A stretch of 55,879 nucleotides of DNA, taken from positions 1-55,879 of IMG/VR virus record IMGVR_UViG_3300021090_000024; one strand, given 5' to 3'. Of the stretch, positions 8,589 to 33,300 are shown piece after piece; the first letter of the stretch is position 1; each line of letters opens with the position of its first letter. The notes beneath the pieces were generated by a model. That model made no database searches. It had not been told where the DNA came from and was given only the letters and a program-made list of their open reading frames with translations. The translations under genes and the position numbers were made by a program. Source of the stretch: a virus.

Positions 8589-8798
8589 ATGGACAATTGC
8601 ATCTGTCAGCCTTTCATCTCATATTGGGATGGGAGCGCCTATGCCGGTGAATTCAACAGCATACCAACCAGAGATTGCCCTGAACATGGTGATGCTGCTG
8701 AGGAGCGCTTTCGTGCGCTTGTGACTGCCATTGATGAAGTACATCGCGAAGCAGGGATCGATTCGAAAGACGGCTTTGAACTAGGCGGTGGTCACTAA
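8589..8798 (+). CDS. hypothetical protein
   Basis: 69-aa protein MDNCICQPFISYWDGSAYAG, with AAAGGAG 8 bases upstream. It has Cys at 4, 6 and 30 with His33, so a small metal site is possible, followed by a helix. It follows the long hairpin, whose folding could influence its expression. TAATG overlap with the next gene. Confidence 0.7.
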   Translation: MDNCICQPFISYWDGSAYAGEFNSIPTRDCPEHGDAAEERFRALVTAIDEVHREAGIDSKDGFELGGGH

Positions 8799-8923
8799 TG
8801 ACTACTGTGATTGGCATTCCGCTCCCTGGCGTGCGGGTGACTATGCCCACTGTACGCGACTACCCTGGTATCCATATCAGTAGGCCACAGCCCAAGCCAA
8901 ATAGCGCTCCTAAGAAGGTCTAG
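8798..8923 (+). CDS. small Pro-rich protein
   Basis: 41-aa protein beginning MTTVIGIPLPGVRVTMPTVR and ending in a Pro/Lys tail. It shares TAATG with the upstream stop. Composition is protein-like but no function can be given. Confidence 0.5.
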   Translation: MTTVIGIPLPGVRVTMPTVRDYPGIHISRPQPKPNSAPKKV

Positions 8924-8924
8924 C

Positions 8925-9071
8925 ATGAACCCATTGAAGAAGCTGAAGCATCGGGCGCAGCGCGTTGGCGGAGCATACGGCCATCAGCATGTCAATAAAT
9001 GGTTAAAGCGGGCGGCGAATCGTTTCATCCGCCGCTTCCTAAAGGAGGAACGTCGTGAATATGAAGATTGA
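8925..9071 (+). CDS. small highly basic protein
   Basis: 48-aa Arg/Lys-rich protein (MNPLKKLKHRAQRVGGAYGH; later FIRRFLKEERREYED). The charge suggests nucleic-acid binding, as for many short phage proteins, but this is inference. It overlaps the next gene, whose ribosome site lies within it. Confidence 0.55.
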   Translation: MNPLKKLKHRAQRVGGAYGHQHVNKWLKRAANRFIRRFLKEERREYED

Positions 9072-9591
9072 CGATTGGCCAATGGTTGGCTCGGCGGTCT
9101 TTTCGCCGGATAGACGCTATCGCTATACCCTAGAACGCATGTTTACCGCGACGCCGAATAGGTGGTATGAGTATCATGCGATCTTCATTATGCTTAACCC
9201 ATCGACGGCGGATGCAGACGTGGCTGATCCGACCGTCCGGCGCTGTATAACCTATGCGTATGATTGGGAATGCAATGGCGTCACGGTCTTGAACCTCTTT
9301 GCGCTGCGCTCCACCAATCCGCGTCATCTTAAAATTGTCGATGATCCTGTAGGGCCAGGCAACGATGATGCGATCCGAGCTTCATTGGAAGAACTCAAGG
9401 CTGATCGCCCTGAGCCAATTGTAGTGTGTGCCTGGGGTGAGCACGGGGCCTATCGGTATCGAGGCTCCGCCGTCTTGAATATAGTGCGAGAAGCAAACCT
9501 TACGCCTCATTATCTGAAGCTGAATGCTTCGGGACAACCGGCCCATCCGCTCTATCTCCCCAAAAATTTGACGCCCATTCCATATGTGTGA
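9055..9591 (+). CDS. DUF1643 domain protein
   Basis: 178-aa protein read from GTG 9055, 7 bases after AAAGGAGG. It shows the DUF1643 signature: FIMLNPSTADADVADPTVRRC (about residues 44-64, split here only as a description), then NLFALRSTNP (about 80-89) and VCAWGEHG (about 124-131). The family is common in phages and bacteria. It has a conserved fold but no agreed biochemical role. Last gene before the tRNA array. Confidence 0.9.
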   Translation: MNMKIDDWPMVGSAVFSPDRRYRYTLERMFTATPNRWYEYHAIFIMLNPSTADADVADPTVRRCITYAYDWECNGVTVLNLFALRSTNPRHLKIVDDPVGPGNDDAIRASLEELKADRPEPIVVCAWGEHGAYRYRGSAVLNIVREANLTPHYLKLNASGQPAHPLYLPKNLTPIPYV

Positions 9592-9623
9592 TATGTTTTA
9601 ACCTCATACACGTTTTAATCAGT

Positions 9624-9699
9624 AGCGCGGTAGAGAAGTGGTTATCTCGCTGGCCCCATAAGCCGGAAATCGTGGGTTCAAATCCCACCTGCGCCACCA
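9624..9699 (+). tRNA. tRNA-Met (CAT), initiator-like
   Basis: Cloverleaf with encoded CCA. Anticodon loop CCCATAA. It carries initiator hallmarks: unpaired A1/C72, an A11:T24 pair in the D stem and three consecutive G:C pairs next to the anticodon loop. Position 33 is C, not T. First gene of the array. Confidence 0.9.
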
Positions 9700-9720
9700 A
9701 TGTGCACACCGTCTCTCGCG

Positions 9721-9888
9721 GCGGTTAAGGGCGAAGTAGCCCAACTTCGGATAGGCGAGCCACCGCTGATCACGGTGATTAGTTTCCGAGGCATTATGGC
9801 TGGCCCCTATGTTAGGGGCAGTTGAACGGGGCGGTGACAAGAGGTTTGGAACCTCTTCCGGTTTCCGGTTGCAGACGGATAGCCGCCC
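9721..9888 (+). ncRNA. structured spacer with a D-arm-less tRNA-Pro-like fold
   Basis: The region has several perfect hairpins: GCGGT/ACCGC enclosing CGAAGT/ACTTCG (9721-9766) and GCCCCTA/TAGGGGC (9803-9819). At 9829-9888 GGGCGGT pairs with GCCGCCC around an AGAGG/CCTCT stem with loop TTTGGAA (Pro anticodon TGG) and a T-arm-like stem. There is no D arm and no CCA. It may be a decayed tRNA or a small structured RNA. Confidence 0.4.
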
Positions 9889-9968
9889 AATTTTCTAGTA
9901 TGTGGGGCGCGCTGTCGTGTCGTGAGTCATTGGAGGCTCCCTTGATTTCGACTCAAACACGACAATTT

Positions 9969-10042
9969 TCCCCGTTAGTCTAGTGGTAGGACGTGTGGCT
10001 CTGAACCACAAGGGCGGAGTTCGAATCTTTGACGGGGAGCCA
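9969..10042 (+). tRNA. tRNA-Gln (CTG)
   Basis: Acceptor TCCCCGT/ACGGGGA, anticodon stem TGTGG/CCACA, loop CTCTGAA, encoded CCA. The T stem uses two G:T pairs. Confidence 0.93.
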
Positions 10043-10069
10043 GACAAATAAGAGAAAAGGAGGTTCGAC

Positions 10070-10198
10070 GTGGACGGCGATAATCGCAGCGGATGGACGC
10101 CACGCATGGTTTTTTGGAATACCTTGGGCACCGTTGTTGGTGCTGTCTGCGGAACCTCCGCCTTGGTAATTTCTGTTATAGCCCTGCTTCAATCTTAA
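10070..10198 (+). CDS. small membrane protein inside the tRNA array
   Basis: 42-aa protein from GTG 10070 with AAAGGAGG 7-8 bases upstream. A short polar N-terminus precedes one hydrophobic helix (VVGAVCGTSALVISVIALL). Function unknown. Its location between tRNA-Gln and tRNA-Asp, with a strong ribosome site, shows the array is transcribed with protein genes. Confidence 0.65.
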   Translation: MDGDNRSGWTPRMVFWNTLGTVVGAVCGTSALVISVIALLQS

Positions 10199-10232
10199 AG
10201 CAGACGCACTTTTACAACTGAATAGTGAGCGC

Positions 10233-10307
10233 CCTGGCGGGGTGTGAAGGATGCATCCCTCCCTGTCAAGGAGGAGGTAGCGGGATCGATACCCGTCGCT
10301 AGGGCCA
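10233..10307 (+). tRNA. tRNA-Asp (GTC)
   Basis: Acceptor CCTGGCG/CGCTAGG, anticodon stem CCTCC/GGAGG, loop CTGTCAA, discriminator G and encoded CCA. A C1:G72 start is unusual. Confidence 0.88.
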
Positions 10308-10403
10308 GACGCATATCACGGGAAGGCGATAGCTTTAGGGGCATAAGCCTGGAAAAGCGGGTATCGTCAACGTTGGTAACGGGTTAGGCCAACAGGTTGG
10401 TTC

Positions 10404-10479
10404 GGGGGTGTAGCTCAATTGGGAGAGCAAGTGCCTTGCACGCACTAGGTTGCAGGTTCGAGACCTGTCACTTCCACCA
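10404..10479 (+). tRNA. tRNA-Ala (TGC)
   Basis: Acceptor GGGGGTG/CACTTCC with G:T pairs, anticodon stem AGTGC/GCACT, loop CTTGCAC, encoded CCA. Confidence 0.93.
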
Positions 10480-10595
10480 AGAAATAACGCATGGTTCCGC
10501 ATTTCGTAAGGATGCGGCGAGGAGTCGGGAAGGTGGGAGATGATGCGCCACCGCAGCAGGGTAGCAAGTAAGTCCCTAGCGCCAACCATGCATGA

Positions 10596-10670
10596 GCGTT
10601 CGTAGCTCAATGGCAGAGCAGGCGGCTCTTAACCGTCAGGTTCAGAGTTCAAATCTCTGCGGACGCACCA
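10596..10670 (+). tRNA. tRNA-Lys (CTT)
   Basis: Acceptor GCGTTCG/CGGACGC, anticodon stem GGCGG/CCGTC, loop CTCTTAA, encoded CCA. The 196 bases after it hold no tRNA or convincing gene. They contain dyads such as GCTTGTG/CACAAGC. Confidence 0.93.
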
Positions 10671-10866
10671 AGAAACTTGCGGCTAGAAGGGAACCTCCGG
10701 CTAGGTTTGTGGACTTTAAGGGTGCCGGACGAGCGGCTTGTGGAGTGGTTTACACAAGCGAAAAGAGAAGTGCAGGGACAGGTCGGGGATCGGACAGCGG
10801 ACGGTCTGATCGGGTCGGAGGCGCGGGCGCGGTACTAGCGCGAAGGGGCTATCCGACCGGCTGGAT

Positions 10867-10938
10867 GCGAGTGAGTCATGGCGACAAGCTGTGTCTCCAA
10901 AACCAGTGATGTGGGTTCGATTCCTACCACTCGTGCCA
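10867..10938 (+). tRNA. tRNA-Trp (CCA), atypical
   Basis: Acceptor GCGAGTG/CACTCGT, T arm GTGGG/CCTAC and an anticodon loop CTCCAAA followed by ACCAG are clear. The 5' anticodon strand reads CTGTGT, so one T must bulge for CTGGT/ACCAG pairing. The D arm is short. Either a degraded tRNA or one with an unusual bulge. Confidence 0.65.
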
Positions 10939-10949
10939 AAAATAGCTAT

Positions 10950-11024
10950 TCTGAGGTAGCTCAGCGGTAGAGCGGCTGTCTGTTAAACAGTTGGTCGAAG
11001 GTTCGAATCCTTCCCTCAGAGCCA
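10950..11024 (+). tRNA. tRNA-Asn (GTT)
   Basis: Acceptor TCTGAGG/CCTCAGA, anticodon stem GCTGT/ACAGT, loop CTGTTAA, discriminator G, encoded CCA. Confidence 0.94.
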
Positions 11025-11034
11025 AAAAATTTAC

Positions 11035-11110
11035 GGCTCTCTAGCCCAACGGCAGAGGCAATGGCTTCAAAACCCATCCAGTCTGAGTTCAAATCTCAGG
11101 GGAGCTACCA
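11035..11110 (+). tRNA. tRNA-Leu (CAA), class I variable loop
   Basis: Acceptor GGCTCTC/GGGAGCT, T arm CTGAG/CTCAG, loop TTCAAAA giving anticodon CAA, with a C31/C39 mismatch (ATGGC/CCCAT). The variable loop is 5 bases, unlike the long arm of normal bacterial tRNA-Leu. Confidence 0.8.
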
Positions 11111-11129
11111 AGAAATTTCGGGGCACTTA

Positions 11130-11187
11130 AAGGGGTCTGCCGCCATACGTGGCACTTATTTTTTTAGAGCAGACCCGCCCCTTTTAT
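11130..11187 (+). other. inverted repeat between tRNAs
   Basis: AAAGGGGTCTGC near 11130 pairs with GCAGACCC-GCCCCTTTT near 11170-11187, with a 2-base bulge. The loop contains GCCA-TACG-TGGC followed by a run of T's. It could be a transcription attenuator or RNA processing signal within the array. Confidence 0.5.
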
Positions 11188-11189
11188 AC

Positions 11190-11261
11190 GGCCCTTTCTG
11201 CTAGCGGTTAGGCATCCCGTCTCTCGAATGGGCAACGCCGGTTCGAATCCGGCAAGGGCCA
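11190..11261 (+). tRNA. tRNA-Glu (CTC)
   Basis: Acceptor GGCCCTT/AAGGGCC, anticodon stem CCCGT/ATGGG, loop CTCTCGA. The 3' CCA is not encoded (sequence continues ACG), the only clear case in the array. Confidence 0.9.
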
Positions 11262-11262
11262 C

Positions 11263-11337
11263 GGCCCCTTCTGTTAACGGTTAGGCAGCGTGTCCTTCAA
11301 ACACGTAACGCGGGTTCGACTCCCACAGGGGCCACCA
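11263..11337 (+). tRNA. tRNA-Glu (TTC)
   Basis: Acceptor GGCCCCT/AGGGGCC, anticodon stem CGTGT/ACACG, loop CCTTCAA. Position 33 is C instead of T. CCA encoded. It starts one base after the previous tRNA and closely resembles it, suggesting duplication. Confidence 0.88.
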
Positions 11338-11356
11338 GAAAAGAGGAGGAAGCAAA

Positions 11357-11521
11357 ATGAATGACGAATTGTATGATCTCATCGAAACTCTACGAGCACT
11401 ACGTGCAAGGGTGGACGACTTAAATGAACCGGAGATGGACGAGCATCGCGCGGCAGCAATTATGGAATCACTGACCAGTGCCATATCCAGTTTATTGGTA
11501 GCACGTCATCTCGTGAATTAA
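11357..11521 (+). CDS. small helical protein inside the tRNA array
   Basis: 54-aa protein MNDELYDLIETLRALRARVD, helical and coiled-coil-like, with GAGGAGG upstream. Function unknown. Its TAA is one base before tRNA-Phe. Confidence 0.65.
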   Translation: MNDELYDLIETLRALRARVDDLNEPEMDEHRAAAIMESLTSAISSLLVARHLVN

Positions 11522-11597
11522 GCCGTGGTAGCTCATACGGTAGAGCGCTTGCCTGAAAAGCAAGAGGTAGCTGGATCGTTACCAGCCTGCGGCACCA
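11522..11597 (+). tRNA. tRNA-Phe (GAA)
   Basis: Acceptor GCCGTGG/CTGCGGC, anticodon stem CTTGC/GCAAG, loop CTGAAAA, encoded CCA. Directly abuts the stop of the preceding small gene. Confidence 0.92.
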
Positions 11598-11609
11598 AAT
11601 AATTATTAT

Positions 11610-11687
11610 GCCGGTGAAGCTCACGTTGGCTTGAGCGCCCGCCTTGTAAGCGGAAGAACGGGGGTTCGATTCCCTCTACCGGCTCCA
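11610..11687 (+). tRNA. tRNA-Thr (TGT)
   Basis: Acceptor GCCGGTG/TACCGGC, anticodon loop CTTGTAA, discriminator T, encoded CCA. The D loop is long. Confidence 0.9.
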
Positions 11688-11688
11688 C

Positions 11689-11765
11689 GCGGGTGTGATG
11701 TTTAATGGCTAGCATGTCTGCCTTCCAAGCAGAACGAGGGGGTTCGAGTCCTCTCATCCGCACCA
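11689..11765 (+). tRNA. tRNA-Gly (TCC)
   Basis: Acceptor GCGGGTG/CATCCGC, anticodon stem TCTGC/GCAGA, loop CTTCCAA, encoded CCA. Confidence 0.92.
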
Positions 11766-11977
11766 AGAATGGGCCAATTCACGAAAAGCATGAATTCGTG
11801 AGTAGGAACTCTGCGAGGGGCGCAGGAGCGCTTGAAAGTGTGTGGCTGGATCGGAGTGTCGTAAGCACCAGCCTAGCGCAACGGTGAGCGGATACGCTCA
11901 TTAAACGCAAACACGTAGAGGGTTGGGTCGACCCAATGCCGTTGACACTGGCGGGTCGGTGGTAGCAGAGTCCCAAT
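11766..11977 (+). other. tRNA spacer with palindromes
   Basis: No gene or tRNA is visible in these 212 bases. They hold a TCACGAA/TTCGTGA dyad (about 11779-11801), TGAGCG-GATA-CGCTCA (about 11885-11900) and a perfect palindrome TTGGGTCGACCCAA (11923-11936). Processing or protein-binding sites are possible. Confidence 0.6.
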
Positions 11978-12065
11978 GCCAGTGCGCCGGAGATGGGGAG
12001 CCGGAGCGGTCTGTAAAACCGCCGCCCTTCGGGGCTAGTAGGTTCAAATCCTATCGCTGGCACCA
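11978..12065 (+). tRNA. tRNA-Tyr (GTA)
   Basis: Class II tRNA with long variable arm (CGCCC-TTC-GGGGC). Acceptor GCCAGTG/CGCTGGC, anticodon stem GCGGT/ACCGC, loop CTGTAAA, encoded CCA. Confidence 0.93.
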
Positions 12066-12074
12066 AAAAGTTTC

Positions 12075-12149
12075 GCCCGCTTAGCTCAGCGGAAGAGCAT
12101 GTTCCTTACAAGAACGGGGCCGGAGGTTCGAATCCTTCAGCGGGCACCA
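12075..12149 (+). tRNA. tRNA-Val (TAC)
   Basis: Acceptor GCCCGCT/AGCGGGC, anticodon loop CTTACAA, encoded CCA. Confidence 0.93.
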
Positions 12150-12236
12150 AGTCAAAGCGGGTCTTCATCAGGTAGATGCAATGCGCACCCTGAACCAGCA
12201 AACATGATAGTGAAAGTGGAGATAAGAGACTATCTT

Positions 12237-12314
12237 GCCCTTGATGCTCGATTGGACAGAGAAACGGAGTTCTAACCCGTATAAAAGTGGGTTCGAATCC
12301 CACCGAGGGCACCA
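12237..12314 (+). tRNA. tRNA-Arg (TCT)
   Basis: Acceptor GCCCTTG/CGAGGGC, anticodon stem ACGGA/CCCGT with one mismatch next to the loop, loop GTTCTAA, encoded CCA. Confidence 0.88.
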
Positions 12315-12315
12315 C

Positions 12316-12400
12316 GCCGGTATGACGGAATAGGCAGACGTAGCGGTCTTAAAAACCGTGGCCTTCGGGCATGTAGGTTCGACCCCTACTATCGGCACCA
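12316..12400 (+). tRNA. tRNA-Leu (TAA)
   Basis: Class II tRNA with long variable arm (GGCCTTCGGGC). Acceptor GCCGGTA/TATCGGC, anticodon stem GCGGT/ACCGT, loop CTTAAAA, encoded CCA. Confidence 0.92.
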
Positions 12401-12413
12401 GAAAATTGAATAC

Positions 12414-12491
12414 GGCTTTCTATCCCAATTGGCAGAGGAGACAGTCTTAGAAACTGCTAATGTCTCGGTTCGAGTCCGAGGAAAGCCACCA
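12414..12491 (+). tRNA. tRNA-Leu (TAG), class I variable loop
   Basis: Acceptor GGCTTTC/GAAAGCC, loop CTTAGAA giving anticodon TAG (reads CUA), T arm CTCGG/CCGAG, short variable loop. Similar to the CAA tRNA at 11035, so the two probably share ancestry. Confidence 0.83.
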
Positions 12492-12497
12492 AGAATT

Positions 12498-12572
12498 AGC
12501 CCTTTAGCTCAGTGGTAGAGCATCGGCCTTATAAGCCGGAGGCCGTTGGTTCGAATCCAACAAGGGCAACCA
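12498..12572 (+). tRNA. tRNA-Ile (TAT)
   Basis: Anticodon stem TCGGC/GCCGG, loop CTTATAA, encoded CCA. Reads AUA directly without lysidine. The first acceptor pair appears to be A:A. Confidence 0.88.
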
Positions 12573-12581
12573 GACAACTTT

Positions 12582-12668
12582 GGAGGAGTCGGCATGGGAA
12601 ACGCCAAACTGTCCTGAAAACAGCGGGCCGTAAAAAGCCAGGGGGTTCGAATCCCTCCTCCTCCGCCA
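12582..12668 (+). tRNA. tRNA-Ser (TGA)
   Basis: Class II tRNA, acceptor GGAGGAG/CTCCTCC, discriminator G, encoded CCA. Anticodon loop CCTGAAA has C at position 33, and the stem CTGT/ACAG is only four pairs. Confidence 0.87.
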
Positions 12669-12743
12669 GCCCGCTTAGCTCAATGGCAGAGCATCCGCCT
12701 TTTAAGCGGTCGGTTGTAGGTTCGACTCCTACAGCGGGCACCA
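12669..12743 (+). tRNA. tRNA-Lys (TTT)
   Basis: Begins immediately after the previous CCA. Acceptor GCCCGCT/AGCGGGC, anticodon stem TCCGC/GCGGT, loop CTTTTAA, encoded CCA. Confidence 0.93.
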
Positions 12744-12854
12744 GAAAATGGGAATCCTCAACTCCTGCGTGCAGGGTAGGGGCTACAGTGACTGGTCAGC
12801 ATTGTAGCAATAAGGGATGAGGCAATTCCGGTACGTGGAGAAGCCGGATAACAC

Positions 12855-12930
12855 GCCCTTTTAGCTCAGCGAACAGAGCAGCGGTCTTCGAAACCGCGTG
12901 TCGGGGGTTTGAATCCCTCAAAGGGCACCA
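12855..12930 (+). tRNA. tRNA-Arg (TCG)
   Basis: Acceptor GCCCTTT/AAAGGGC, anticodon stem GCGGT/ACCGC, loop CTTCGAA, encoded CCA. The 111 bases before it hold nothing recognisable. Confidence 0.92.
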
Positions 12931-12935
12931 GACAA

Positions 12936-13010
12936 GCCTGCTTAGCTCAGGGGTAGAGCACTGATCTGATACGTCAGTTGTCGGTGGTTCAAATCCATCA
13001 GCAGGCACCA
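12936..13010 (+). tRNA. tRNA-Ile (GAT)
   Basis: Acceptor GCCTGCT/AGCAGGC, anticodon stem CTGAT/GTCAG, loop CTGATAC, encoded CCA. Confidence 0.92.
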
Positions 13011-13068
13011 ATAAATGATCGTGTTGTCATCTTGACTGTTTTAGTGATTCTGACAACATAAGCATATA

Positions 13069-13143
13069 CGGGGTGTGGGGCAGCGGTAGCCTACTTGATT
13101 TGGAATCAAGATGTCGCTGGTTCGAATCCAGCCACCCCGACCA
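13069..13143 (+). tRNA. tRNA-Pro (TGG)
   Basis: Acceptor CGGGGTG/CACCCCG, anticodon stem CTTGA/TCAAG, loop TTTGGAA, encoded CCA. A TGTTGTCA/TGACAACA dyad (13022-13059) lies just upstream. Confidence 0.93.
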
Positions 13144-13195
13144 ATACTTCAAAATCCCTCATACTTGAGGGGCAATGCAGTAACATGTTCACCAA

Positions 13196-13272
13196 CGAGA
13201 GAGTGGTCTAAATGGTTAAGACGATAGATTGTGGCTCTGTAAATGCGAGTTCGAATCTCGCCCTCTCGACCA
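13196..13272 (+). tRNA. tRNA-His (GTG)
   Basis: Anticodon stem ATAGA/TCTGT, loop TTGTGGC, T arm GCGAG/CTCGC, acceptor CGAGAG/CTCTCG, encoded CCA. The usual His G-1 is absent. The next protein frame opens within it. Confidence 0.85.
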
Positions 13273-13679
13273 AAAAATGCACGAAATGTGGCCTCATCAA
13301 ATCGATTGAGGATTTCTTCTTGCGCAGTGATCGGTCTATGACACATCGCCCTGAATGCAAAAAATGCCACGGTGAGCAAACAAAACGTAATCATCGAATG
13401 CGTCCTGGCCGACATTTGAGGCCCCAATACGGTATAACTGAAGAGCAATATCAGACTATGCTCAAAGCACAAAATGGTGTGTGCGCTATTTGTCAACAAA
13501 ATCCAAAAGATCGGCGCCTAGCAGTAGATCACGATCACAGAACTATGCGCGTGAGAGGACTGCTTTGCAATACGTGCAATCGCGCTATTGGTCAGATGGG
13601 AGATGATCCAGTACGGCTTCGACGCGCGGCAGAATATTTAGGAGAGGTGGCAGAGAGGTTGAATGCACCGGATTGCTAA
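13212..13679 (+). CDS. endonuclease VII-like HNH protein between tRNAs
   Basis: Recombination endonuclease VII family (Holliday-junction or homing-type HNH). The core is NGVCAICQQ, LAVDHDHRTMRVRGLLC and NTCNRAIGQMGDD, with four zinc Cys and the DHDH catalytic motif, preceded by a KKCTKCG-x(25)-C-x2-C zinc ribbon. The only ATG in frame (13212) lies inside tRNA-His. No ATG, GTG or TTG occurs between the tRNA end (13272) and the zinc ribbon, so the start is uncertain. The stop TAA at 13677-13679 lies in the anticodon loop of tRNA-Ser, so its last 13 codons are tRNA sequence. This suggests insertion into a tRNA array. Confidence 0.8.
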   Translation: MVKTIDCGSVNASSNLALSTKKCTKCGLIKSIEDFFLRSDRSMTHRPECKKCHGEQTKRNHRMRPGRHLRPQYGITEEQYQTMLKAQNGVCAICQQNPKDRRLAVDHDHRTMRVRGLLCNTCNRAIGQMGDDPVRLRRAAEYLGEVAERLNAPDC

Positions 13680-13730
13680 TCCGGCAGGCCCGCAAGGGCC
13701 TCGTGGGTTCGAATCCCACCCTCTCCGCCA
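13641..13730 (+). tRNA. tRNA-Ser (GCT)
   Basis: Class II tRNA, acceptor GGAGAGG/CCTCTCC, anticodon stem CCGGA/TCCGG, loop TTGCTAA, variable arm AGGCCC-GCAA-GGGCCT, discriminator G, encoded CCA. Last tRNA of the array. Its 5' half doubles as the 3' end of the endonuclease gene. Confidence 0.94.
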
Positions 13731-17188: not shown

Positions 17189-17563
17189 CTAGGGGTCTTG
17201 TCTTACGAGGTGTCCTTCGCTATCAAAATACATATCCTCAACATCCCGATGATAGCCGTCATGGTTCGCCTCTAACACGCACGCGCCGTCAAATGCGCCG
17301 CAGATGATTAGAGCGGGATGCTCTGTTTCCTCTATTAAAGCACCATGCTCTTCTGCTGCCATAGTGAGTAAGCGCTCAATACGTGCTAAATCTGCGGCCA
17401 TTGCAACCACAAGATCAGACGAGGCCTCCCCGAACCAAGCAATGTAAGGCCGCTTTGTAGTAGCGTGCTGAAGAACAAAACCCATCGAGGCAATACTGCC
17501 TGCGTTGATAATCGCGGCTGCTACGGTTTCAAGGAACGCAATCTCTGGTCGTTTCTCAGTCAT
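17189..17563 (-). CDS. hypothetical protein in leftward island
   Basis: 124-aa protein, leftward. GGAGG six bases before the ATG at 17563 selects this start, and it overlaps the stop of the upstream HNH-like gene. The N-terminal 70 residues are helical (FLETVAAAIINAGSIASM), and a C-terminal stretch CGAFDGACVLEANHDGYHRD recalls a small Cys/His motif. It is expressed with the HNH-like gene and is of unknown function. Confidence 0.7.
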   Translation of the reverse strand: MTEKRPEIAFLETVAAAIINAGSIASMGFVLQHATTKRPYIAWFGEASSDLVVAMAADLARIERLLTMAAEEHGALIEETEHPALIICGAFDGACVLEANHDGYHRDVEDMYFDSEGHLVRQDP

Positions 17564-18182
17564 CATTTGCCTCCAAGCCATATTGTACAGCACGGTGCAA
17601 CATCTCGCGCTCATGCGCGACGGCGGCAGCGTAGCGTTTGTCGTCGGGGTTGTCTTTGCGCAATTGGCGGAACCTCATATTGAAAACATAGTCCATAGCA
17701 GATGCGCGATCTAAGAGGTGATAGTGCTTCCTATCTACGATGTAACAATTGAATTCCCGCACATGATCTCTTTGCTTCTGTGTATTATTTCGCAGGCGTT
17801 CTTTCCAGCAATCTTTGCATGTATTGCGGCGTTCTGCAAAGTCCTTTAGATCAAGATATGCACCACATTCTTTACAGAACTTATGCGTTTCTGGATGCAA
17901 TCTTTTTGCTTGTTCTTGTCGTGTTTGACGAAGGCTAACAAGTTCCCAATTCGAGGGTTCAAGATTCATCCAATTACCGTCGACTGGCCGGAGGTGGGCG
18001 ACCCGTGATGGCGCTGGAACCCCATGAATTTGCTCCCACAAGATGCGGTGCGCCGGAGCCAACACATGGCGACTGGCGTGATCTGGCGGCTCGGTGCAAC
18101 GGAGCAAATAGGGATGTCCGTGGCTGTTCATTGTCTCGCCGTAAGTACATAGGTCGTTCACGCCGTGGTCTATACACCTCAC
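17556..18182 (-). CDS. HNH-type endonuclease-like protein
   Basis: 208-aa leftward protein read from GTG 18182. Residues about 28-75 resemble the HNH_3 homing-endonuclease pattern: HRILWEQIHGVPAP, then AHLRPVDGNWMNLEPSNWEL (the usual first His-His is Ala-His here, so activity is uncertain). A Cys4 knuckle (FCKECG and CKDCW) follows at about 102-125, then a long charged helix. It heads a two-gene unit opposite to all neighbours, and its 5' end is duplicated in inverted orientation at 18250-18273. Confidence 0.7.
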   Translation of the reverse strand: MRCIDHGVNDLCTYGETMNSHGHPYLLRCTEPPDHASRHVLAPAHRILWEQIHGVPAPSRVAHLRPVDGNWMNLEPSNWELVSLRQTRQEQAKRLHPETHKFCKECGAYLDLKDFAERRNTCKDCWKERLRNNTQKQRDHVREFNCYIVDRKHYHLLDRASAMDYVFNMRFRQLRKDNPDDKRYAAAVAHEREMLHRAVQYGLEANDD

Positions 18183-22469: not shown

Positions 22470-22859
22470 ATGGACATTGTTAAGAACATTTTTCGTAATG
22501 TAGGTCGTTTGGTGCATGGCTTTCGTGTGGGCCTTAATTTTACTAAGGCTTCAGATGGGACTTATACACTTACTCCCTCAATTGCAGCAGACCGTAATGT
22601 ACTGATTGCGGTTAAAGTCACAGAGACATTTGCTGCTGGCGACGGCGCTAAGCCGACATTCAAAATCGGTCAGACAGGTTCCACAAGCAAATTTGCGGCG
22701 ACAACTGCCTTTTCTGTCAGCGCCATTATGGGGGATGTACTGATATTCTCTGGCGTTTTGTCATCGGGTGCTGCCCTGCTTGTGACAGTAACAGCCGCTA
22801 CAGGCACCGCGACTGGTGCACTTGCGGTTGAGGCAATTGTCTTGCCTGCCACGGTATAA
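22470..22859 (+). CDS. structural protein candidate
   Basis: 129-aa protein with an amphipathic N-terminus (MDIVKNIFRNVGRLVHGFRV) followed by a Thr/Ala/Val-rich beta domain. AGGGAG upstream. Placed between a similar beta-domain protein and the portal, hence probably a virion protein. No family recognised. Confidence 0.55.
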   Translation: MDIVKNIFRNVGRLVHGFRVGLNFTKASDGTYTLTPSIAADRNVLIAVKVTETFAAGDGAKPTFKIGQTGSTSKFAATTAFSVSAIMGDVLIFSGVLSSGAALLVTVTAATGTATGALAVEAIVLPATV

Positions 22860-22881
22860 GCCGGAGGGAGGCACTTTTACT

Positions 22882-24369
22882 GTGCCACGTAATTTTCGAT
22901 TTGAATCACAGCCAGAACTGATAAAGGCGACGCCAGAACGTCTTGCAGAACGCAAGGTCGGTCTGGCGATTTTGCCTATTCCGAACACTCCGGCTGCTAA
23001 GCGTGATGTAAAACTCTATCGTGCATGGGCAGATCAGAATGAATGGATTCGTGCTGCAATCAATCATCGTAAATTTCAGGTCTCTAGCGCGCCGTGGGAT
23101 ATTGTTCCTATTGATTCGGAAGCCCAATACGATTTATCGACCCAACTTCGCATGATTGATCTACTTCAGCACCCTAATCCTGCTACAGACGGCTTCCGCA
23201 CCCTTATGGAGAAGAACGTTGAGGACATTCTAGTTTTGGATGCTGGCTGTATTGAAACAGTACGCACCTATCGCGGCATCCCTGCGCAGCTATGGAATGT
23301 CGATGGTGCCACCATGCGTGTGAGTCAGACATGGATGGGTGATGAGGATGAGCCGCGTTACTTCTGGTATCCTAATGGTCGTTTTGGCGCAGCCTTGCTC
23401 GATAAAGACTTGATGTATATGATGCAGAATCCGTCTACACATCGTGTGTTGGGCTTGTCTCCTCTTGAAACCTTGCGCGAAACAATTGATGCAGAAATGC
23501 AGGCGTCACGGTATAACAAGGGCCAAGTTATGCAAGCTCCTCCGCATGGGATTATTCATCTTGGCGAAGATGCAACTGTGGAGAATGTAGATCAATTCGA
23601 GCGCTACTGGCGAGCAGAAATTGCCGGTATCAAGACAACAGCCGTTATAGGCGGAACTAAAGACCCCAAGTTCTTGAGTTTCGGTCGCTCACAGCGTGAC
23701 ATGCAGTTTCTTCAGTGGCAGAGTTATTTGATCCGTAAGATTGCGGCGGTATTCGGCATCTCACCGCAGGATTTGGGCATCTTATTCGATGTCAACCGCG
23801 CCAATGCGGAGACACAGGCTGATCTATCTGAGGATCGCGGTCTGCGTCCCTTGATTAGTTTGATCGAATCCTATATCAATCGTGAGGTTATCGGCAACTT
23901 CCAGCGTCAGAAGGCTAAGCAGATGTTCTATCAGGGAACAATGACTGGTCAAACAATGGCTAATGCAATTGCATTGAGTTATCTCGATACGCGTACAGAG
24001 TCACGGTTGAAATTATTCAAGCAATTGACTGAGGCCAATGTTACGAATTTGGCCTTCCGATTTAAGATTCCCTCCGGTCGGAATACCGCAGCGCGCGCGG
24101 CGACGCATAAACTGGAACTTGGTGGGATTCCGTGGCAGACGGTTAATAAGGTACGTGACGAGGAATTAGAAGACCCTGTAGAGGGTGGCGATGAAATCAT
24201 TGTGATGACGCCGCTTGGCCCTGTGCGTTTGTCAACCATTACCGGTGCGACACAGCCAAATACCTTGGAGCAGGCATTCATTCAGAATTCTATATATGAG
24301 CGCAAGATAATTATTGGGTCTGGTAAGAAATCGGCTGAAGACTCGACAAGCGAAGCAGAGCTAGGCTAG
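22882..24369 (+). CDS. portal protein
   Basis: 495-aa portal from GTG 22882 (GGAGGGAGG about 11 bases upstream). Typical portal features are WIRAAINHRKFQVSSAPWDI, a GLSPLETLRETIDAEMQ helix, and the crown/stem region FLQWQSYLIRKIAAVFGISPQ followed by NRANAETQADLSEDRGLRP. The portal is the dodecameric channel at one head vertex through which terminase pumps DNA. The C-terminus is acidic, and its last codons contain motif copy c. Confidence 0.9.
   Translation: MPRNFRFESQPELIKATPERLAERKVGLAILPIPNTPAAKRDVKLYRAWADQNEWIRAAINHRKFQVSSAPWDIVPIDSEAQYDLSTQLRMIDLLQHPNPATDGFRTLMEKNVEDILVLDAGCIETVRTYRGIPAQLWNVDGATMRVSQTWMGDEDEPRYFWYPNGRFGAALLDKDLMYMMQNPSTHRVLGLSPLETLRETIDAEMQASRYNKGQVMQAPPHGIIHLGEDATVENVDQFERYWRAEIAGIKTTAVIGGTKDPKFLSFGRSQRDMQFLQWQSYLIRKIAAVFGISPQDLGILFDVNRANAETQADLSEDRGLRPLISLIESYINREVIGNFQRQKAKQMFYQGTMTGQTMANAIALSYLDTRTESRLKLFKQLTEANVTNLAFRFKIPSGRNTAARAATHKLELGGIPWQTVNKVRDEELEDPVEGGDEIIVMTPLGPVRLSTITGATQPNTLEQAFIQNSIYERKIIIGSGKKSAEDSTSEAELG
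24329..24348 (+). repeat. TCGGCT motif, copy c
   Basis: AATCGGCTGAAGACTCGACA, lying inside the last 15 codons of the portal gene (read as KSAEDST), about 40 bases before the protease start. See copy a. Confidence 0.55.
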
Positions 24370-24370
24370 T

Positions 24371-26374
24371 GTGATTGATATGGCGAACATGCAACAGCCA
24401 ACGCGATTCGATATTCTTCTTGGCGCTGTTAAGGCAGTTGACGAGGGCGGCTCTCCGCGCATAATTTGTACGGCATCGTCTGACGTAGTTGACCTTGGCG
24501 TAGATCGTTTCATGTTGTCTGCGCTCGAACAGATGGCCGTTACTTTCCCTGGTATGGCAATCTTTTTGAACCACAAATACGTGGTGCCAGAGGATGTGTT
24601 CGGTGCCGTAACAAAGGCCACAATTGTAGATCGGGAAGGCCATCACGATCTCGATCTTGAGATTGCAGTCGATACGCATAATGAACGGGCAATGGTGGTT
24701 TATCGCCAGATTCAGTCCGGCGTGAAGTTGGGTGTGAGTGTTGGTGTTTTGGTTTTGGATGCCGAATATTCCAGCGAAAAAGTGGACGGCAAGAAGATTT
24801 TGAATATTAAAAGCGTCAATACGTTGGAGGCCAGCATTGTTGGCATTCCAGCTAATCGTCGGTCTTGGGTGCAAGGTGCTCTTAAAGCAGCCAGTATGTA
24901 CTTCGAAGGCGAGACGCGTGAACTCCTTGAAAAGCTGGCGAATTCGATTCAGACCAGCGACGGAGGTACAGTAATGGAACTCGATGAACTAGCTGCTTTT
25001 GAAAAAGACGAAGATGTGCAAGTTCCTACTCCTGAAGAGGACGTAGAGGATGCGCCTACTCCTGATGAAGAAGGCGCTGAGGAAGATGAGCCGGAGATTG
25101 TCGAAGATGCGGTTGTAGAGATGGCACCTGTGCTGGCAGAAGTTACGGACTCCCCCGCAGTAAATGCTGAAGCAGTAGAAACGATAGTCGAGGATTCGGC
25201 GGAGCAGATCGTTACGGAACCGGAAGCAGAGCTTGCCGTGCCAGAGGAGCGACCCGAAGCTGAATCAGTATCGGTCATACTTGCTCGGCAGCGGTTAAAG
25301 CACGCTGACAAGAATCGTAAATGGTACGACATTACTGTAAAGGATGCCGAGCCAGATGATCTTGCAGCAGAAACCGAGGATTCGGTATCTCGTGTTGCAG
25401 AAGTCCTCATTTATGATTCTATCGGTGGCGCTGAGACTACTCAAGCCTTCGTTAATGCTGTTGATTCATTGGATGTGGAGCGCATTAACTTGCGTATCAA
25501 TAGTCCTGGCGGCATTATCGATGACGGGATCGCTATTCGAAATGCTCTATCTCGAAACAAGGCGGATGTTTACACATACGTTGAAGGTCTAGCAGCTTCG
25601 ATGGCATCGATCATTGCAATGGTTGGTAAAGAGTGCATTATGGCTCCTGACTCTATGATGATGATTCATGAGCCTTGGGGCTGTGCAATGGGTGATGCGA
25701 GTATCTTCGAAAAAGAAGCACGCATTCTCAACAAGTATGCTAATCAACTTGCCGGTGTGTACGCGAATAAGGCTGGCGGTGATCGTGAAGAATGGCGCGA
25801 TGTGATGCGCATTGAGTCATGGTACAGTGCTGAAGAAGCAGTAGATGCCGGTCTTGCTGAACGTGTTGGCGGCGAATCTGATGGCTATAAGGCTCCAAAG
25901 AAAAAGCCAATGCCTGGGGAAGAGCCGGAAGAAGAGCCAATGCATAAGGGCTTTGATGTCGACATTTTTACATTGTTCAAGAATGCACCTGTTTCGGCGA
26001 AGCGTTTCTTCACGCGAGAGTTCGTGCCAGAGCTTGTGGCCACTGTCGATCCGACAGAAATGACACAGATGGCTATTGGCATTAGCGGCTTGTCGACTGC
26101 TCTGCGTACAGCGCAGAAGGACAACGATTCTCTACGTGATAAATTGCTAGATAAGGAAACAGCCGTAACTACTCTTGAAACTGAGCGTGCGACCTTGTTT
26201 AAGGAAGTGCAGGAACTTATGGTGCATGTTAACCGTGTGCTTGACACGCCAATGCCTCGCCGTACAAGTGCGGTTTTCGCAAATGCTATCGAGGGAATTG
26301 CAAGTAAATGGCCTTGGTTGGACGAGCGCATTGTAGCACAGCTTGCACGGACAGAAGGTGAACCATCTAGCTAA
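24371..26374 (+). CDS. dual prohead protease with scaffold-like C-terminus
   Basis: 667-aa protein (GTG 24371 or ATG 24380). Residues 8-175 resemble an HK97-type (S78/U35) prohead protease: FLNHKY with His68 followed by VFGAV, then KLGVSVGV with Ser123, and TLEASIVGIPANRRS. An acidic linker covers about 205-300. Residues 318-500 form a ClpP-like (S14) protease: INSPGG, GLAASMAS with Ser410, and MIHEPWG with His433. The last 100 residues include a coiled-coil (DSLRDKLLDKETAVTTLETE) like a scaffold domain. Carrying both protease folds in one chain is unusual. It should process the head during maturation. Confidence 0.85.
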   Translation: MIDMANMQQPTRFDILLGAVKAVDEGGSPRIICTASSDVVDLGVDRFMLSALEQMAVTFPGMAIFLNHKYVVPEDVFGAVTKATIVDREGHHDLDLEIAVDTHNERAMVVYRQIQSGVKLGVSVGVLVLDAEYSSEKVDGKKILNIKSVNTLEASIVGIPANRRSWVQGALKAASMYFEGETRELLEKLANSIQTSDGGTVMELDELAAFEKDEDVQVPTPEEDVEDAPTPDEEGAEEDEPEIVEDAVVEMAPVLAEVTDSPAVNAEAVETIVEDSAEQIVTEPEAELAVPEERPEAESVSVILARQRLKHADKNRKWYDITVKDAEPDDLAAETEDSVSRVAEVLIYDSIGGAETTQAFVNAVDSLDVERINLRINSPGGIIDDGIAIRNALSRNKADVYTYVEGLAASMASIIAMVGKECIMAPDSMMMIHEPWGCAMGDASIFEKEARILNKYANQLAGVYANKAGGDREEWRDVMRIESWYSAEEAVDAGLAERVGGESDGYKAPKKKPMPGEEPEEEPMHKGFDVDIFTLFKNAPVSAKRFFTREFVPELVATVDPTEMTQMAIGISGLSTALRTAQKDNDSLRDKLLDKETAVTTLETERATLFKEVQELMVHVNRVLDTPMPRRTSAVFANAIEGIASKWPWLDERIVAQLARTEGEPSS

Positions 26375-27093
26375 TGACAGCACGAATTTATGGCCTTATT
26401 GATCCAGATACAATGGAGCTACGTTATGTTGGTCAGACACAGATGCCTTGGCCTAAACGTTTAGCTTGCCATATAAGGGCTGCTAAAAAGGGTCAGACAT
26501 ATGTCCACAATTGGATAAACTCCTGTGTTACCGCTCCTCTTTTGATTACTTTAGAACGCGATCCAATGGATTTGGATGAAGCCGAACGCCGATGGATTAA
26601 AGAAATGTTAGCGCAGGGCGCGCGTCTTACTAATATTTCTTCAGGTGGTGCTGGTATAACTGCGGCTGTCCGTATAAGCCAGCGCATAGCGCATTTGGGT
26701 AAAACTGTTTCTTGTCCTCCTCCTTCTTGGCTTGGTCGCCATCATACTTTAGAATCATGTATGGCAATAAGCAAAGCAAGAATGGGAATGCGCTTTTCTG
26801 TTGAGCATCGGGCGGCAATTAGTGCAGCACAGATTGGTGTTCCTTTAAGCGATGCTAAACTGGCACAGCTATCTAAACTGAGCGCTGGAAATATTGGAAA
26901 GAAATTTCCAGGTCGTGGTACTGGCAGGAGTCCAACTGCGGAAACTAGAGAAAAGATTAGTGCGTCACAGATGGGTAAAATTATTTCAGATGAAACTCGT
27001 GCTTATCAAAGTGCTGCACATTTAGGTAAGCCTTGGAGCGACATCCGGCGGGCAGCTTATATGCGTAAGTATGGGCTAGCTTTTCAAGAATAA
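26374..27093 (+). CDS. GIY-YIG homing endonuclease
   Basis: 239-aa protein whose ATG overlaps the protease stop (TAATGA). The GIY-YIG catalytic module is at residues 5-60: IYGLID then RYVGQT, an Arg after it (KRLACH) and a Glu in the ERRWIKE helix. Several NUMOD3-type DNA-binding repeats follow (SKARMGMRFSVEHRAAIS, REKISASQMGK, plus similar). Free-standing homing nucleases of this kind insert between phage genes and spread by cutting uninserted relatives. It separates protease from capsid, and its TAA directly precedes motif copy d. Codons look less optimised than in the capsid gene. Confidence 0.88.
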   Translation: MTARIYGLIDPDTMELRYVGQTQMPWPKRLACHIRAAKKGQTYVHNWINSCVTAPLLITLERDPMDLDEAERRWIKEMLAQGARLTNISSGGAGITAAVRISQRIAHLGKTVSCPPPSWLGRHHTLESCMAISKARMGMRFSVEHRAAISAAQIGVPLSDAKLAQLSKLSAGNIGKKFPGRGTGRSPTAETREKISASQMGKIISDETRAYQSAAHLGKPWSDIRRAAYMRKYGLAFQE

Positions 27094-27111: not shown

Positions 27112-27186
27112 GCTCCATATGCAATACATGAGAATGGCCTTGTAAGCGTAAAAGCAACAAGCCAAACTCCTAAAGGAGAAACGAAG

Positions 27187-28485
27187 ATGGCAACTGAAAA
27201 CGACAACCCAATTGGCGATGTGCGCACAGCTAGCGGCTTGCTCAAGGACATTGCTCCTTTGATCGAGAAGTGGGCTGCGCAGACCGCTCCTGATCCAACT
27301 CAGGTGGCCGCTCCTTCTGCACCGGAAACGCGTGCGGCAGAGAAGACTTTCGAGGAAATGCTCGATCTGCGTACCAATTTGATTAAGCAGAACGATGCCG
27401 TTCTCCATCGCATGATTGGCTATCAGTTGGTCAAGGGTGCACGTGAGAAGCAGGGTATATCTCTGCACCAGTGGCTTGGCGGAGATCGCCACGCATTGGC
27501 AGCACTTCAGTCTGATCCAATCATCTCAAAGGCACTCGATACGGCAGTGGGTTCTGCCCTGATTCGTCAGGACTTGGAGCCTTTGCTCTACGCAGCTTTT
27601 GTGCGGAAGTTCCCGTTGTGGGATCGTATTCGGAAGGAGCCATCTAACGGTTTGGTTCACGCCTACAACCGTACCGATGCTGCACCGGACGCATCCTTCA
27701 TCTCTGAACTTGGTGCTGTTCCAAGCGGTAATGGTGTCTACACACGTGCAGTCGCCAATGTCGCTATCGCAGCCATCAAGGTTGGGGTATCGGTGAAGAT
27801 GCAGCTAGCGGCTATGGCCGGTGGCGGTGGCTGGAACCCTGAGACTGAAGAGATTGCAAATGGTTTGACTGGTCTGCGGCGTAAGCTTCAGCGCACAGTC
27901 TTCAGTGGCAACTCATCTGTTCCTGGTAAGGTCGCAACCGATCCTGAAGGTCTGTTCGACATCAATGGTTTTGACGGTCTACGTGGGTTGATTCCCGCAG
28001 CCAACAAGACCTTGCATGATCCGGCAAACTTTAGCCTGACTCAGGACTTCAACAACGCGGATTCCGTGTTGTCAGTGTTCGGCGGAATGGCCTCCATCTT
28101 GGTGATGGATACTCGTGACAAGACGTTGTGGATGAACGAGCTTGAAGTTGCTGAGCGCATTCAGTTGCCTCAGTTGAGCCTCGTGCCTGGTCTTCCAAAC
28201 ATCACAGGTATCAACCTTGGCAACTCCGGTGAAGTTCCGGTTCTTGGAATTCCTGGTGACGAGATTGGTCACTACACCTTCGGCGGCGACGATGTTCGCG
28301 ACGCGTACCTTTTGGACGAGTCAACTATCACCGTCCCGTTCTTGGGCAGCGATATGCCAACCATCTTGGACATTCCAACGGGTACGGACGGTACTTTGAG
28401 CCATGTCTTCATCCTCTTCCAGATGGCAGGTTTGGCGGCAAAGATTCCGAACTACCTCTCAGCACTGCGTATCCCAACCCCATAA
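27187..28485 (+). CDS. major capsid protein
   Basis: 432-aa protein. ATG 27187 follows AAAGGAG. Upstream in-frame codons are open but lack a ribosome site. The N-terminal 90 residues are helical and charged, like an HK97 delta domain. Features such as LDTAVGSALIRQDLEPLLY, NRTDAAPDASFISELGAVPS and a central ILVMDTRDKTLWMNE fit an HK97-fold shell protein. Position after the protease supports it. Codon use is strongly biased to favoured codons, as expected for the most abundant virion protein. Confidence 0.85.
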   Translation: MATENDNPIGDVRTASGLLKDIAPLIEKWAAQTAPDPTQVAAPSAPETRAAEKTFEEMLDLRTNLIKQNDAVLHRMIGYQLVKGAREKQGISLHQWLGGDRHALAALQSDPIISKALDTAVGSALIRQDLEPLLYAAFVRKFPLWDRIRKEPSNGLVHAYNRTDAAPDASFISELGAVPSGNGVYTRAVANVAIAAIKVGVSVKMQLAAMAGGGGWNPETEEIANGLTGLRRKLQRTVFSGNSSVPGKVATDPEGLFDINGFDGLRGLIPAANKTLHDPANFSLTQDFNNADSVLSVFGGMASILVMDTRDKTLWMNELEVAERIQLPQLSLVPGLPNITGINLGNSGEVPVLGIPGDEIGHYTFGGDDVRDAYLLDESTITVPFLGSDMPTILDIPTGTDGTLSHVFILFQMAGLAAKIPNYLSALRIPTP

Positions 28486-30062: not shown

Positions 30063-30573
30063 ACAAGGTATGTGGATTGAATTCTCATTCGATGCTGGTG
30101 GCCCTATCATGCTCTTTGACGATATTATCCCTCGGCAGTTGCCCCAATGGATTAAAAAGGGTGCGGGTGCAGGCGCGATACGTGTGCAAGATATAATGAG
30201 GGCGGAACTTGACCGACTCATTTACTCCACGCCAGAATCGCCTAATTACAAACGAACGCATACATTGATGCGTGCTACTTATGCCGCGCGTCCTGGGGCA
30301 AACCATAGTGGTGATCATGCAGCGGCCAAGGCTGGCCAGGATTTGCGTGTATCGGCTCCGGCGGCTGGTGGTGTTGTAAAACTCGTTGGCTATGTGGCGC
30401 AAATTGATGTCGGGTCTTGGGCTGATTGGGCATGGCATGTGCACGAGGGTCATGGTAATGGTTCTCGTATACCCAAACCGTTTACAGTACGGCCTTTGAA
30501 CGAGGCTCAGGGTATTTTACGAGAAGAAATCGGCCAAGCATTGAATCTAGGACTGGCCAGTATTTTACGATGA
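30055..30573 (+). CDS. neck / tail completion protein, HK97 gp10-like candidate
   Basis: 172-aa protein, ATG 30055 seven bases after GGAG. Helical N-terminal half including IRVQDIMRAELDRLIY, then a YVAQIDVGSWADWAWHVHEG segment that resembles the substrate-facing part of gp10-like neck proteins. Stop overlaps the LAGLIDADG-like gene start. Confidence 0.6.
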   Translation: MAKQGMWIEFSFDAGGPIMLFDDIIPRQLPQWIKKGAGAGAIRVQDIMRAELDRLIYSTPESPNYKRTHTLMRATYAARPGANHSGDHAAAKAGQDLRVSAPAAGGVVKLVGYVAQIDVGSWADWAWHVHEGHGNGSRIPKPFTVRPLNEAQGILREEIGQALNLGLASILR

Positions 30574-31037
30574 ATACACGTAGAGAAGAGTTAGCGTGGG
30601 CCGCAGGTTTCTTTGATGGTGAAGGTTATACATCTGCAAAACCAGAGCGTCGAGATATTTTTATAGGGTTGCGTTTAGGTATATCGCAATCAGAAGAACC
30701 ACCATTTTCGTTGAAACGTTTTCGCGAGGCGGTTTCTGGTATAGGGACAATACATGGCCCATATTTGACAATGCATAAGCCTCGCTATACTTATTCTGCT
30801 AATGGTGTTGAAGCACAGGCTGTATTTGCAATGCTTGCTAGTTTTTTGGGGCCTGAAAAATTCAAACAAGGTGCAGACAAGATAAGAATTTGGTCGGCAT
30901 ATAGGCAAAAATGGCAGAAATGCGCTGCATTGGGTCATCGTATTCAAATCGGCGTGAATGCTAGCGGTGGCCCAAAACGTTATTGTATGGATTGTGTACA
31001 TAAAACTGATAAATCGGCTGAAGCCTTGCCAGAATAG
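30570..31037 (+). CDS. LAGLIDADG-like homing endonuclease
   Basis: 155-aa protein beginning MNTRREELAWAAGFFDGEGY. AAGFFDGEG (residues 11-19) is a LAGLIDADG variant with the catalytic acidic residue. A single motif implies a homodimer. A second part, VFAMLASFLGPEKFK, fits the usual core, and a late CMDCV pair is visible. ATGA overlap with the neck gene and motif copy e inside its final codons are typical of a free-standing element inserted at a gene junction. Confidence 0.8.
   Translation: MNTRREELAWAAGFFDGEGYTSAKPERRDIFIGLRLGISQSEEPPFSLKRFREAVSGIGTIHGPYLTMHKPRYTYSANGVEAQAVFAMLASFLGPEKFKQGADKIRIWSAYRQKWQKCAALGHRIQIGVNASGGPKRYCMDCVHKTDKSAEALPE
31012..31031 (+). repeat. TCGGCT motif, copy e
   Basis: AATCGGCTGAAGCCTTGCCA, forming the last codons (KSAEALPE) of the LAGLIDADG-like gene. 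GGC-TGAA-GCC inside it could form a small hairpin. See copy a. Confidence 0.65.
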
Positions 31038-32398: not shown

Positions 32399-32854
32399 GT
32401 GACAGTAGCTCGTGATGCGGCACAGCAACTCTATAGGAGCGTATATGCCATCCTGAGCGGCGATACCTCGTTGAATGATTTATTAGCATCCTCTCCTGAA
32501 AATCCAAAAGTATTTCAGACTTTCATTGATTTTGATTCTGCCTTTGCGCTCAAGAACGAGCAATGGCTTACCTTTGGCATCGTGGACGACCGGCCAATGG
32601 ATATTGAACAGATGCAGGATGTGCGCGAAATTGCGCTTGACGTACATGTTTGGGTACGAGGGCCAGGCTCCGATCTGGCAGAATTATTGGAAAAAAGGGT
32701 TCGAGAAGTTTTGGATAACGCAGACTTGTCTACCGCAACGCTTTTCGCTTGGTTTTGTCATTCAGTAGGCTACTCAAAGGTTTATGAAGCGGCTCCGCAA
32801 CTGTGGCACATTACAAGCAGCTATAATGTGTTATGTATGGCACAGGAAAATTGA
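32399..32854 (+). CDS. tail terminator / completion protein candidate
   Basis: 151-aa protein from GTG 32399. An N-terminal helix (RDAAQQLYRSVYAILSGDTS) and later EIALDVHVWVRGPGSDLAEL-EKRVREVLDNAD match the layout of tail-completion proteins (DUF3168-like). It lies just before the tail-tube gene apart from the leftward HNH insertion. The 3' end overlaps that gene antisense by 34 bases. Confidence 0.65.
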   Translation: MTVARDAAQQLYRSVYAILSGDTSLNDLLASSPENPKVFQTFIDFDSAFALKNEQWLTFGIVDDRPMDIEQMQDVREIALDVHVWVRGPGSDLAELLEKRVREVLDNADLSTATLFAWFCHSVGYSKVYEAAPQLWHITSSYNVLCMAQEN

Positions 32855-33300
32855 TGTGGGCAATACCCATAAAATCCGAGAGCCATATTGCAGTTATGAC
32901 ATAGGACGCGGATATGTGTTGGCCAATTTTTCAATACATATTCATAGAAATCACCATTAGGTAAAGAGCGGCGTTCGGCTCTACCTCCACCATTGATATG
33001 ATCAAGCGCTAAAAATTCTTCTCGATCCTCAGCACAACAAGCACATTTCCCGCCATAATATTGGAGTACCTTATGTCGAATTTTCTGGTGACGTATTTTA
33101 CTCGCATGGCTGTCTCGCTCGAAACAAGAATGACAACGTTGTTTGGTGCCATCGCTACCCCGTGGGCGTCCGCATGATTGACATTTGCCATCAGCGAGTC
33201 GTTGTTTCCTTTGCTTTCGTGCGCGTTCTCGGCAAATCGCGCATGTTTTATAATTAGAGCTTGCTGGTCGAATCTTGCAAGTCGAGCATTGTATTTCCAT
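32821..33300 (-). CDS. HNH endonuclease, leftward
   Basis: 159-aa leftward protein. Three N-terminal Cys pairs (CSTCKIRP, CAICRERA, CQSCGRPR, then CHSCFERD) precede the HNH core: GGKCACCAEDRE, LALDHINGGG, H-x-G and VLCHNCNMALGFYG. This pattern is common in free-standing phage HNH homing enzymes. Its orientation opposes the operon, its 3' end overlaps the tail-completion gene, and motif copy f and an inverted repeat lie at its upstream edge, consistent with insertion. Confidence 0.87.
   Translation of the reverse strand: MEIQCSTCKIRPASSNYKTCAICRERARKQRKQRLADGKCQSCGRPRGSDGTKQRCHSCFERDSHASKIRHQKIRHKVLQYYGGKCACCAEDREEFLALDHINGGGRAERRSLPNGDFYEYVLKNWPTHIRVLCHNCNMALGFYGYCPHQFSCAIHNTL

Follow-up and report, generated by a model that had tools for sequence, protein, structure and literature searches.

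Genetic context of the protease gene

The window (the whole stretch of viral DNA analysed, 55,879 bp) includes a reading frame of 667 codons, open throughout, that lies between a portal gene and the gene for the major capsid protein (Table 1). The initial annotation had placed the start at GTG 24371, but the start codons of the corresponding genes in two related contigs, L015 and L016, align with ATG 24380 (residue 4), which is therefore probably the true start. Residues are numbered here with GTG 24371 as residue 1.

Table 1. Features of the protease gene and its neighbours in the window.
Feature	Coordinates	Strand	Basis
Portal protein gene, directly upstream	22816..24369	+	Phage_portal 118 bits; 80% / 60% identical in L015 / L016
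S78-ClpP-scaffold ORF	24371-26374	+	ORF list
S78-ClpP-scaffold gene, complete, from probable start	24380..26374	+	ORF list; start aligned with L015/L016
S78 (HK97-type) prohead protease domain, residues 8-175	24392..24895	+	Pfam, conservation, AF2 model
S78 residues His68, Ser123 and invariant Glu153	24572, 24737, 24827	+	
Acidic linker, residues 176-312	24896..25306	+	Composition, 31% Asp+Glu
Internal Shine-Dalgarno GGAGGT and ATG (24974), candidate start of ClpP-scaffold product	24962..24976	+	Best-scoring Shine-Dalgarno among in-frame ATGs; like position in L015 and L016
ClpP-type (S14) head maturation protease module, residues 313-505	25307..25885	+	Pfam, NCBIfam, AF2 model, residue census
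ClpP residues Ser410, His433, Glu497	25598, 25667, 25859	+	
Post-ClpP segment with FDxxxF..NAP motif	25886..26050	+	Alignment; motif common to stand-alone ClpP-type head proteases
Scaffold-like C-terminal tail, helical, ends PMPRR...PWLDERIVAQLAR	26051..26371	+	AF2 helix; motif common to ClpP-less S78 relatives
GIY-YIG-like homing endonuclease ORF, between protease and capsid genes	26374..27093	+	ORF translation, read by eye
Major capsid protein	27184..28485	+	PHROG major head protein; whole-length alignment with L016 capsid protein

A portal search identified two related contigs, L015 and L016. L015 encodes a 740-residue ORF made up of an S78 domain (~70% identical to that in the window), an insert with a PHHD motif, a ClpP domain (54% identical) and the same tail, whereas in L016 the S78 domain is followed by a PHHD-motif region and the tail, with no ClpP. 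As L015 is an independent contig with equal architecture, an artefact of assembly or frame that joined two genes was ruled out, and its probability is considered negligible. The capsid protein of L016 can be aligned with that of the window over its whole length, N-terminal region included. A search with the window capsid protein retrieved no relatives from viral contigs or phage records, tblastn giving no match among 50,697 phage records; the protein is very divergent.

A GIY-YIG-like ORF, recognised by eye, was also present in L015 (coordinates 8457-9227), located before the protease gene, while that in the window is on the opposite side of it. ORFs at 17556-18182 (-), 30570-31037 (+) and 32821-33300 (-), among the structural genes of the window, have by eye the look of homing endonucleases or HNH-type proteins. 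The window also has 24 tRNA genes clustered at 9624-13730, which together serve most amino acids.

The HK97-type protease domain

Residues 8-175 had been read as an HK97-type (S78) protease with His68 and Ser123, and this assignment was borne out. Peptidase_S78 (PF04586) matched residues 62-168 with 30 bits when the domain was searched alone and 27 bits for the full-length protein (cut-off 21); PHROG profiles of an S78-type head protease and of protease/capsid families matched the N-terminal part. The HK97 equivalog model TIGR01543 (NCBIfam) gave 29.8 bits, below its cut-off of 59, hence the domain is divergent and is not filed as an HK97 equivalog. His68, Ser123, Glu153, Ser155 and a PAN motif were invariant in 27 distinct S78 relatives (all S78 relatives used are metagenomic contigs).

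An AlphaFold (AF2) model of the domain, built from four sequences, had a mean pLDDT of 70.5. T4 gp21 (5jbl) provided its only PDB matches under E 0.001, with a best E of 7e-5 and TM-scores near 0.4, and many prohead proteases were matched in a viral structure library; this structural match is taken as moderate evidence. The S78 domain alone had no match among annotated phages at E 1, and the L016 domain used as query gave only matches above E 0.1, mostly to annotated prohead proteases. No S78 relative was confirmed in two scans of bacterial genomes, the second of which gave two short weak matches, and a PDB sequence search with the S78 profile returned nothing relevant.

Between the window and L015, dN was 0.27 for the S78 domain, 0.43 for the ClpP domain and 0.53 for the tail, with dS saturated. 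With the slowest rate of change of the three parts and with invariant catalytic residues, the S78 domain is unlikely to be a dead relic.

The ClpP-type module

The second domain had been assigned to residues 318-500 as a ClpP-type (S14) protease with Ser410 and His433, in agreement with the profiles. CLP_protease (PF00574) matched residues 368-500 with 104 bits (cut-off 20.2), and NCBIfam NF045542 ('head maturation protease, ClpP-related') scored 163 bits (cut-off 120) over residues 340-496 counted from ATG 24380, or 343-499 counted from GTG 24371. Several PHROG head maturation protease families were also matched, with up to 221 bits. A ClpP module of host type was ruled out because NCBIfam assigns it to the head-maturation type. 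The AF2 model of this part (24 sequences) had a core pLDDT above 90 and matched ClpP with an rmsd of 1.6 Å over about 163 residues and a TM-score of about 0.8 on the ClpP chain.

Ser410 and His433 were invariant in 24 ClpP-type relatives, and the SPGG motif is retained. At the acid position, Asp was found in 20 of the 24 (including L015) and Asn in three, while the window has Glu497, suggesting that the activity of its ClpP domain may be weak. The orf5 product of phage D3 is likewise of the ClpP type, with no S78 match, and its His141 aligns with His433 of the window. Changing D3 His141 to Gln was described as an 'active-site mutation' giving an inactive protease (PMC12749128).

The presence of two unrelated head-protease domains and a scaffold-like tail in one polypeptide, proposed in the initial annotation, thus proved right, with Peptidase_S78 and CLP_protease each above cut-off in the same chain, both His/Ser pairs conserved, and the AlphaFold models of the two halves matching T4 gp21 and ClpP, respectively. 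The confirmed order is S78 (HK97-type) protease, acidic linker, ClpP-type (S14) head protease and helical scaffold-like tail.

Linker, tail and internal start

The acidic linker between the protease domains was found as described earlier (Table 1). In the AF2 model, the C-terminal part forms helices, including one long helix at about residues 586-625, and it carries the motif PMPRR...WPWLDERIVAQLAR, which corresponds to PxGRK...APWLxPxVxRxLEAQ in relatives and gave weak to moderate scores across the S78 group. The scaffold-like tail proposed previously therefore stands as a helical tail with a motif common to S78 relatives, whereas its function as a scaffold is one that we infer.

In the window, L015 and L016, the best Shine-Dalgarno energy among in-frame ATGs is found 19-20 codons after the end of the S78 domain. 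The window sequence at this internal start (ATG 24974) is GGAGGTACAGTAATG, with an energy of -10.8 versus about -3 kcal/mol for the gene's own start. Synonymous-codon shuffles gave P values of 0.005 for the window, 0.12 for L015 and 0.47 for L016, so the support for an internal start is suggestive; in more distant S78 relatives a Shine-Dalgarno and ATG are mostly not kept at that position. The arrangement suggests that a separate, more abundant ClpP-scaffold product may be made from the internal start after S78.

Distribution of the two protease types

A scan with a four-sequence profile identified 78 further S78 loci, and no ClpP match was present in the ORF or the fetched flanks of any of them, bringing the S78 relatives without ClpP, L016 included, to about 80. 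In the 29 records found via the ClpP part, no S78 match was detected by a search whose positive controls performed as expected, but this absence is only partly informative as many of the records are short contigs. The usual order portal - ClpP protease - capsid was seen in four annotated neighbours, Arthrobacter phage Elesar, Corynebacterium phage CL31, a Vibrio plasmid-prophage and Streptomyces phage Dagobah, with no annotated S78 protease in the stretch shown. Since S78 relatives occur without ClpP and ClpP records without S78, the two types of head protease are normally alternatives. Among the sequences examined, they are combined only in the window and L015.

In the S78 tree, L016 branches beside (95/93) a clade made up of the window and L015 (99/95); in the ClpP tree the window and L015 group with the stand-alone proteases of L002, L003 and L013. 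A common origin for both ClpP inserts was neither shown nor rejected (p-AU 0.27), and it is possible that ClpP was lost in L016 instead of gained in the window and L015. As the S78 domain and the tail are also found in L016, whose portal is related and whose capsid protein is similar, S78 is likely to be the core protease and ClpP is optional. The latter is also indicated by the 78 further S78 relatives without ClpP, some of which have other domains in its place.

A variable place between S78 and the tail

A Pfam scan detected a ferritin-like domain (PF00210) between S78 and the tail in L064, L075, L083, L103, L109 and L119, and Hva1_TUDOR in L056, L061, L083, L091, L102, L103 and L109. By BLAST, the ferritin module was present in 19 of 82 S78 ORFs. 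A PHHD motif follows S78 in L015, L016, L043 and L045. The S78 domains of L063 and L064 are 99% identical, as is their DNA over the first 642 bases, but L064 is longer by about 585 bases that span the ferritin module. This module is also present in L068 and L076 and is missing from L070, L072, L073 and L077, the ORFs of which are of L063 length. The occurrence of unrelated domains at one place, together with this presence/absence variation, suggests that the protease-scaffold gene has a variable place, of which the ClpP block would be one occupant.

S78-ferritin/Dps-like fusions with the module ahead of the scaffold-like tail include L064 (6932-9199), L103 (6962-9007) and L083 (2598-5048), among others. 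In L015 (ORF at 9236-11458), a Cys/His-rich stretch (CGVPEC...MCSEH) at codons ~355-385, between the PHHD insert and ClpP, is possibly a small zinc-binding module.

Relationship to known head proteases

Tailed phages are generally considered to mature their heads with a single protease, which belongs to one of a few unrelated types. The N-terminal domain, its His/Ser pair and the portal-protease-capsid gene order resemble those of HK97-type S78 proteases (PF04586, TIGR01543), but the window domain is below the TIGR01543 cut-off and is fused to ClpP and a scaffold-like tail. The second domain belongs with the ClpP-related proteases (NF045542; D3 orf5); however, these are the sole head protease found in D3 and the other relatives examined, whereas that of the window follows an S78 domain and has Glu in place of Asp. 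Each protease type is known within fusions (NF045540, ClpP-MCP; NF045541, S78-MCP), though these combine one protease with a capsid domain, and the window protein, which has both proteases, scores far below both cut-offs.

Herpesvirus UL26/UL26.5 is a protease-scaffold pair with a nested scaffold product, and the window gene appears to share the protease-linker-scaffold order and may have a 3' co-terminal scaffold product. T4 gp21 is matched by the S78 model. Unlike the window protein, neither UL26/UL26.5 nor T4 gp21 includes a ClpP domain, and herpesvirus membership is not claimed for the window. In lambda C/Nu3, a head protease of the ClpP superfamily is accompanied by a nested scaffold made from an internal start, but the protease is of the S49 type and there is no S78 domain. 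No description of an S78+ClpP chain or of a Dps-carrying prohead protease was found in the open-access literature (subscription papers were not covered).

Possible roles of the two proteases

The preferred reading, to which a probability of about 0.6 is given, is a protease-scaffold fusion with an inserted ClpP head-protease module, in which S78 would perform maturation, ClpP would be accessory and a nested ClpP-scaffold product would be made. A herpesvirus-UL26-like gene with an S78-linker-helical tail layout would have received a phage ClpP-type module between protease and tail. The tail would dock the chain inside the assembling prohead, where the S78 domain would make the specific maturation cuts in the capsid protein, itself and the scaffold. 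The ClpP module would be carried with the chain and would probably be an active accessory peptidase, oligomeric in form, that helps to break down scaffold, and the internal start after S78 would probably add ClpP-scaffold copies without S78, as UL26.5 does for UL26. The ClpP module is thus seen as an acquired, optional and probably active accessory carried into the prohead by the scaffold; scaffold digestion, an oligomeric core or a cargo role could each be its contribution.

If both centres were needed in sequence, cleavage would be staged or cross-activating, for example with S78 freeing the ClpP part and the ClpP ring then degrading scaffold or cutting capsid protein. Both Ser/His pairs are retained, both domains have been kept in two phages despite 30-46% sequence change, and a ClpP-type head protease alone can process the capsid protein in phage D3 (PMC12749128). 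However, no second protease that could stand in for ClpP was seen in the 12.5 kb contig of L016, which is of the same capsid lineage and lacks ClpP, and the ClpP triad of the window has Glu in place of Asp. Staged cleavage is accordingly regarded as possible but not favoured, and as rather unlikely.

The variety of domains at the place between S78 and the tail (ferritin-like, Tudor-like, PHHD-motif and ClpP) is what would be expected if the occupant were a payload taken into the head by the tail and freed by S78, ClpP in the window and a Dps-like ferritin in relatives, and the near-identical L063 and L064 differ by just such a module. T4 internal proteins, which enter the core via a capsid-targeting sequence and are then cut by the head protease (PMC5694885), offer a precedent. 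This reading is somewhat unlikely, as the inserted ClpP belongs to the head-maturation type and not to a host or effector one, and as Dps and ClpP might serve instead as cores for oligomerisation. ClpP and Dps/ferritin families form closed rings or cages, and the finding of both at this place, with Glu497 departing from the usual Asp, would also fit a catalytically idle ClpP core aiding scaffold assembly. Ser410, His433 and the SPGG motif, whose loss would be expected in an idle domain, are all kept, and this role is quite improbable. A broader proposal, that the S78 clade has a slot through which exchangeable domains (ClpP-type, Dps/ferritin, Tudor-like and PHHD) are loaded into the prohead as S78-released cargo or as assembly modules, with the window as the two-protease version, is tenable, if at somewhat less than even odds.

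Use of the internal start would yield a ClpP-scaffold product without S78 in the window and a scaffold product without S78 in L016. A chain with two proteases, together with close relatives that have one, provides a natural series for testing the role of each. The ClpP block being one among several optional domains is indicative of modularity at this site of a capsid-assembly gene, which might also be a way of placing enzymes such as Dps or a protease inside phage heads.
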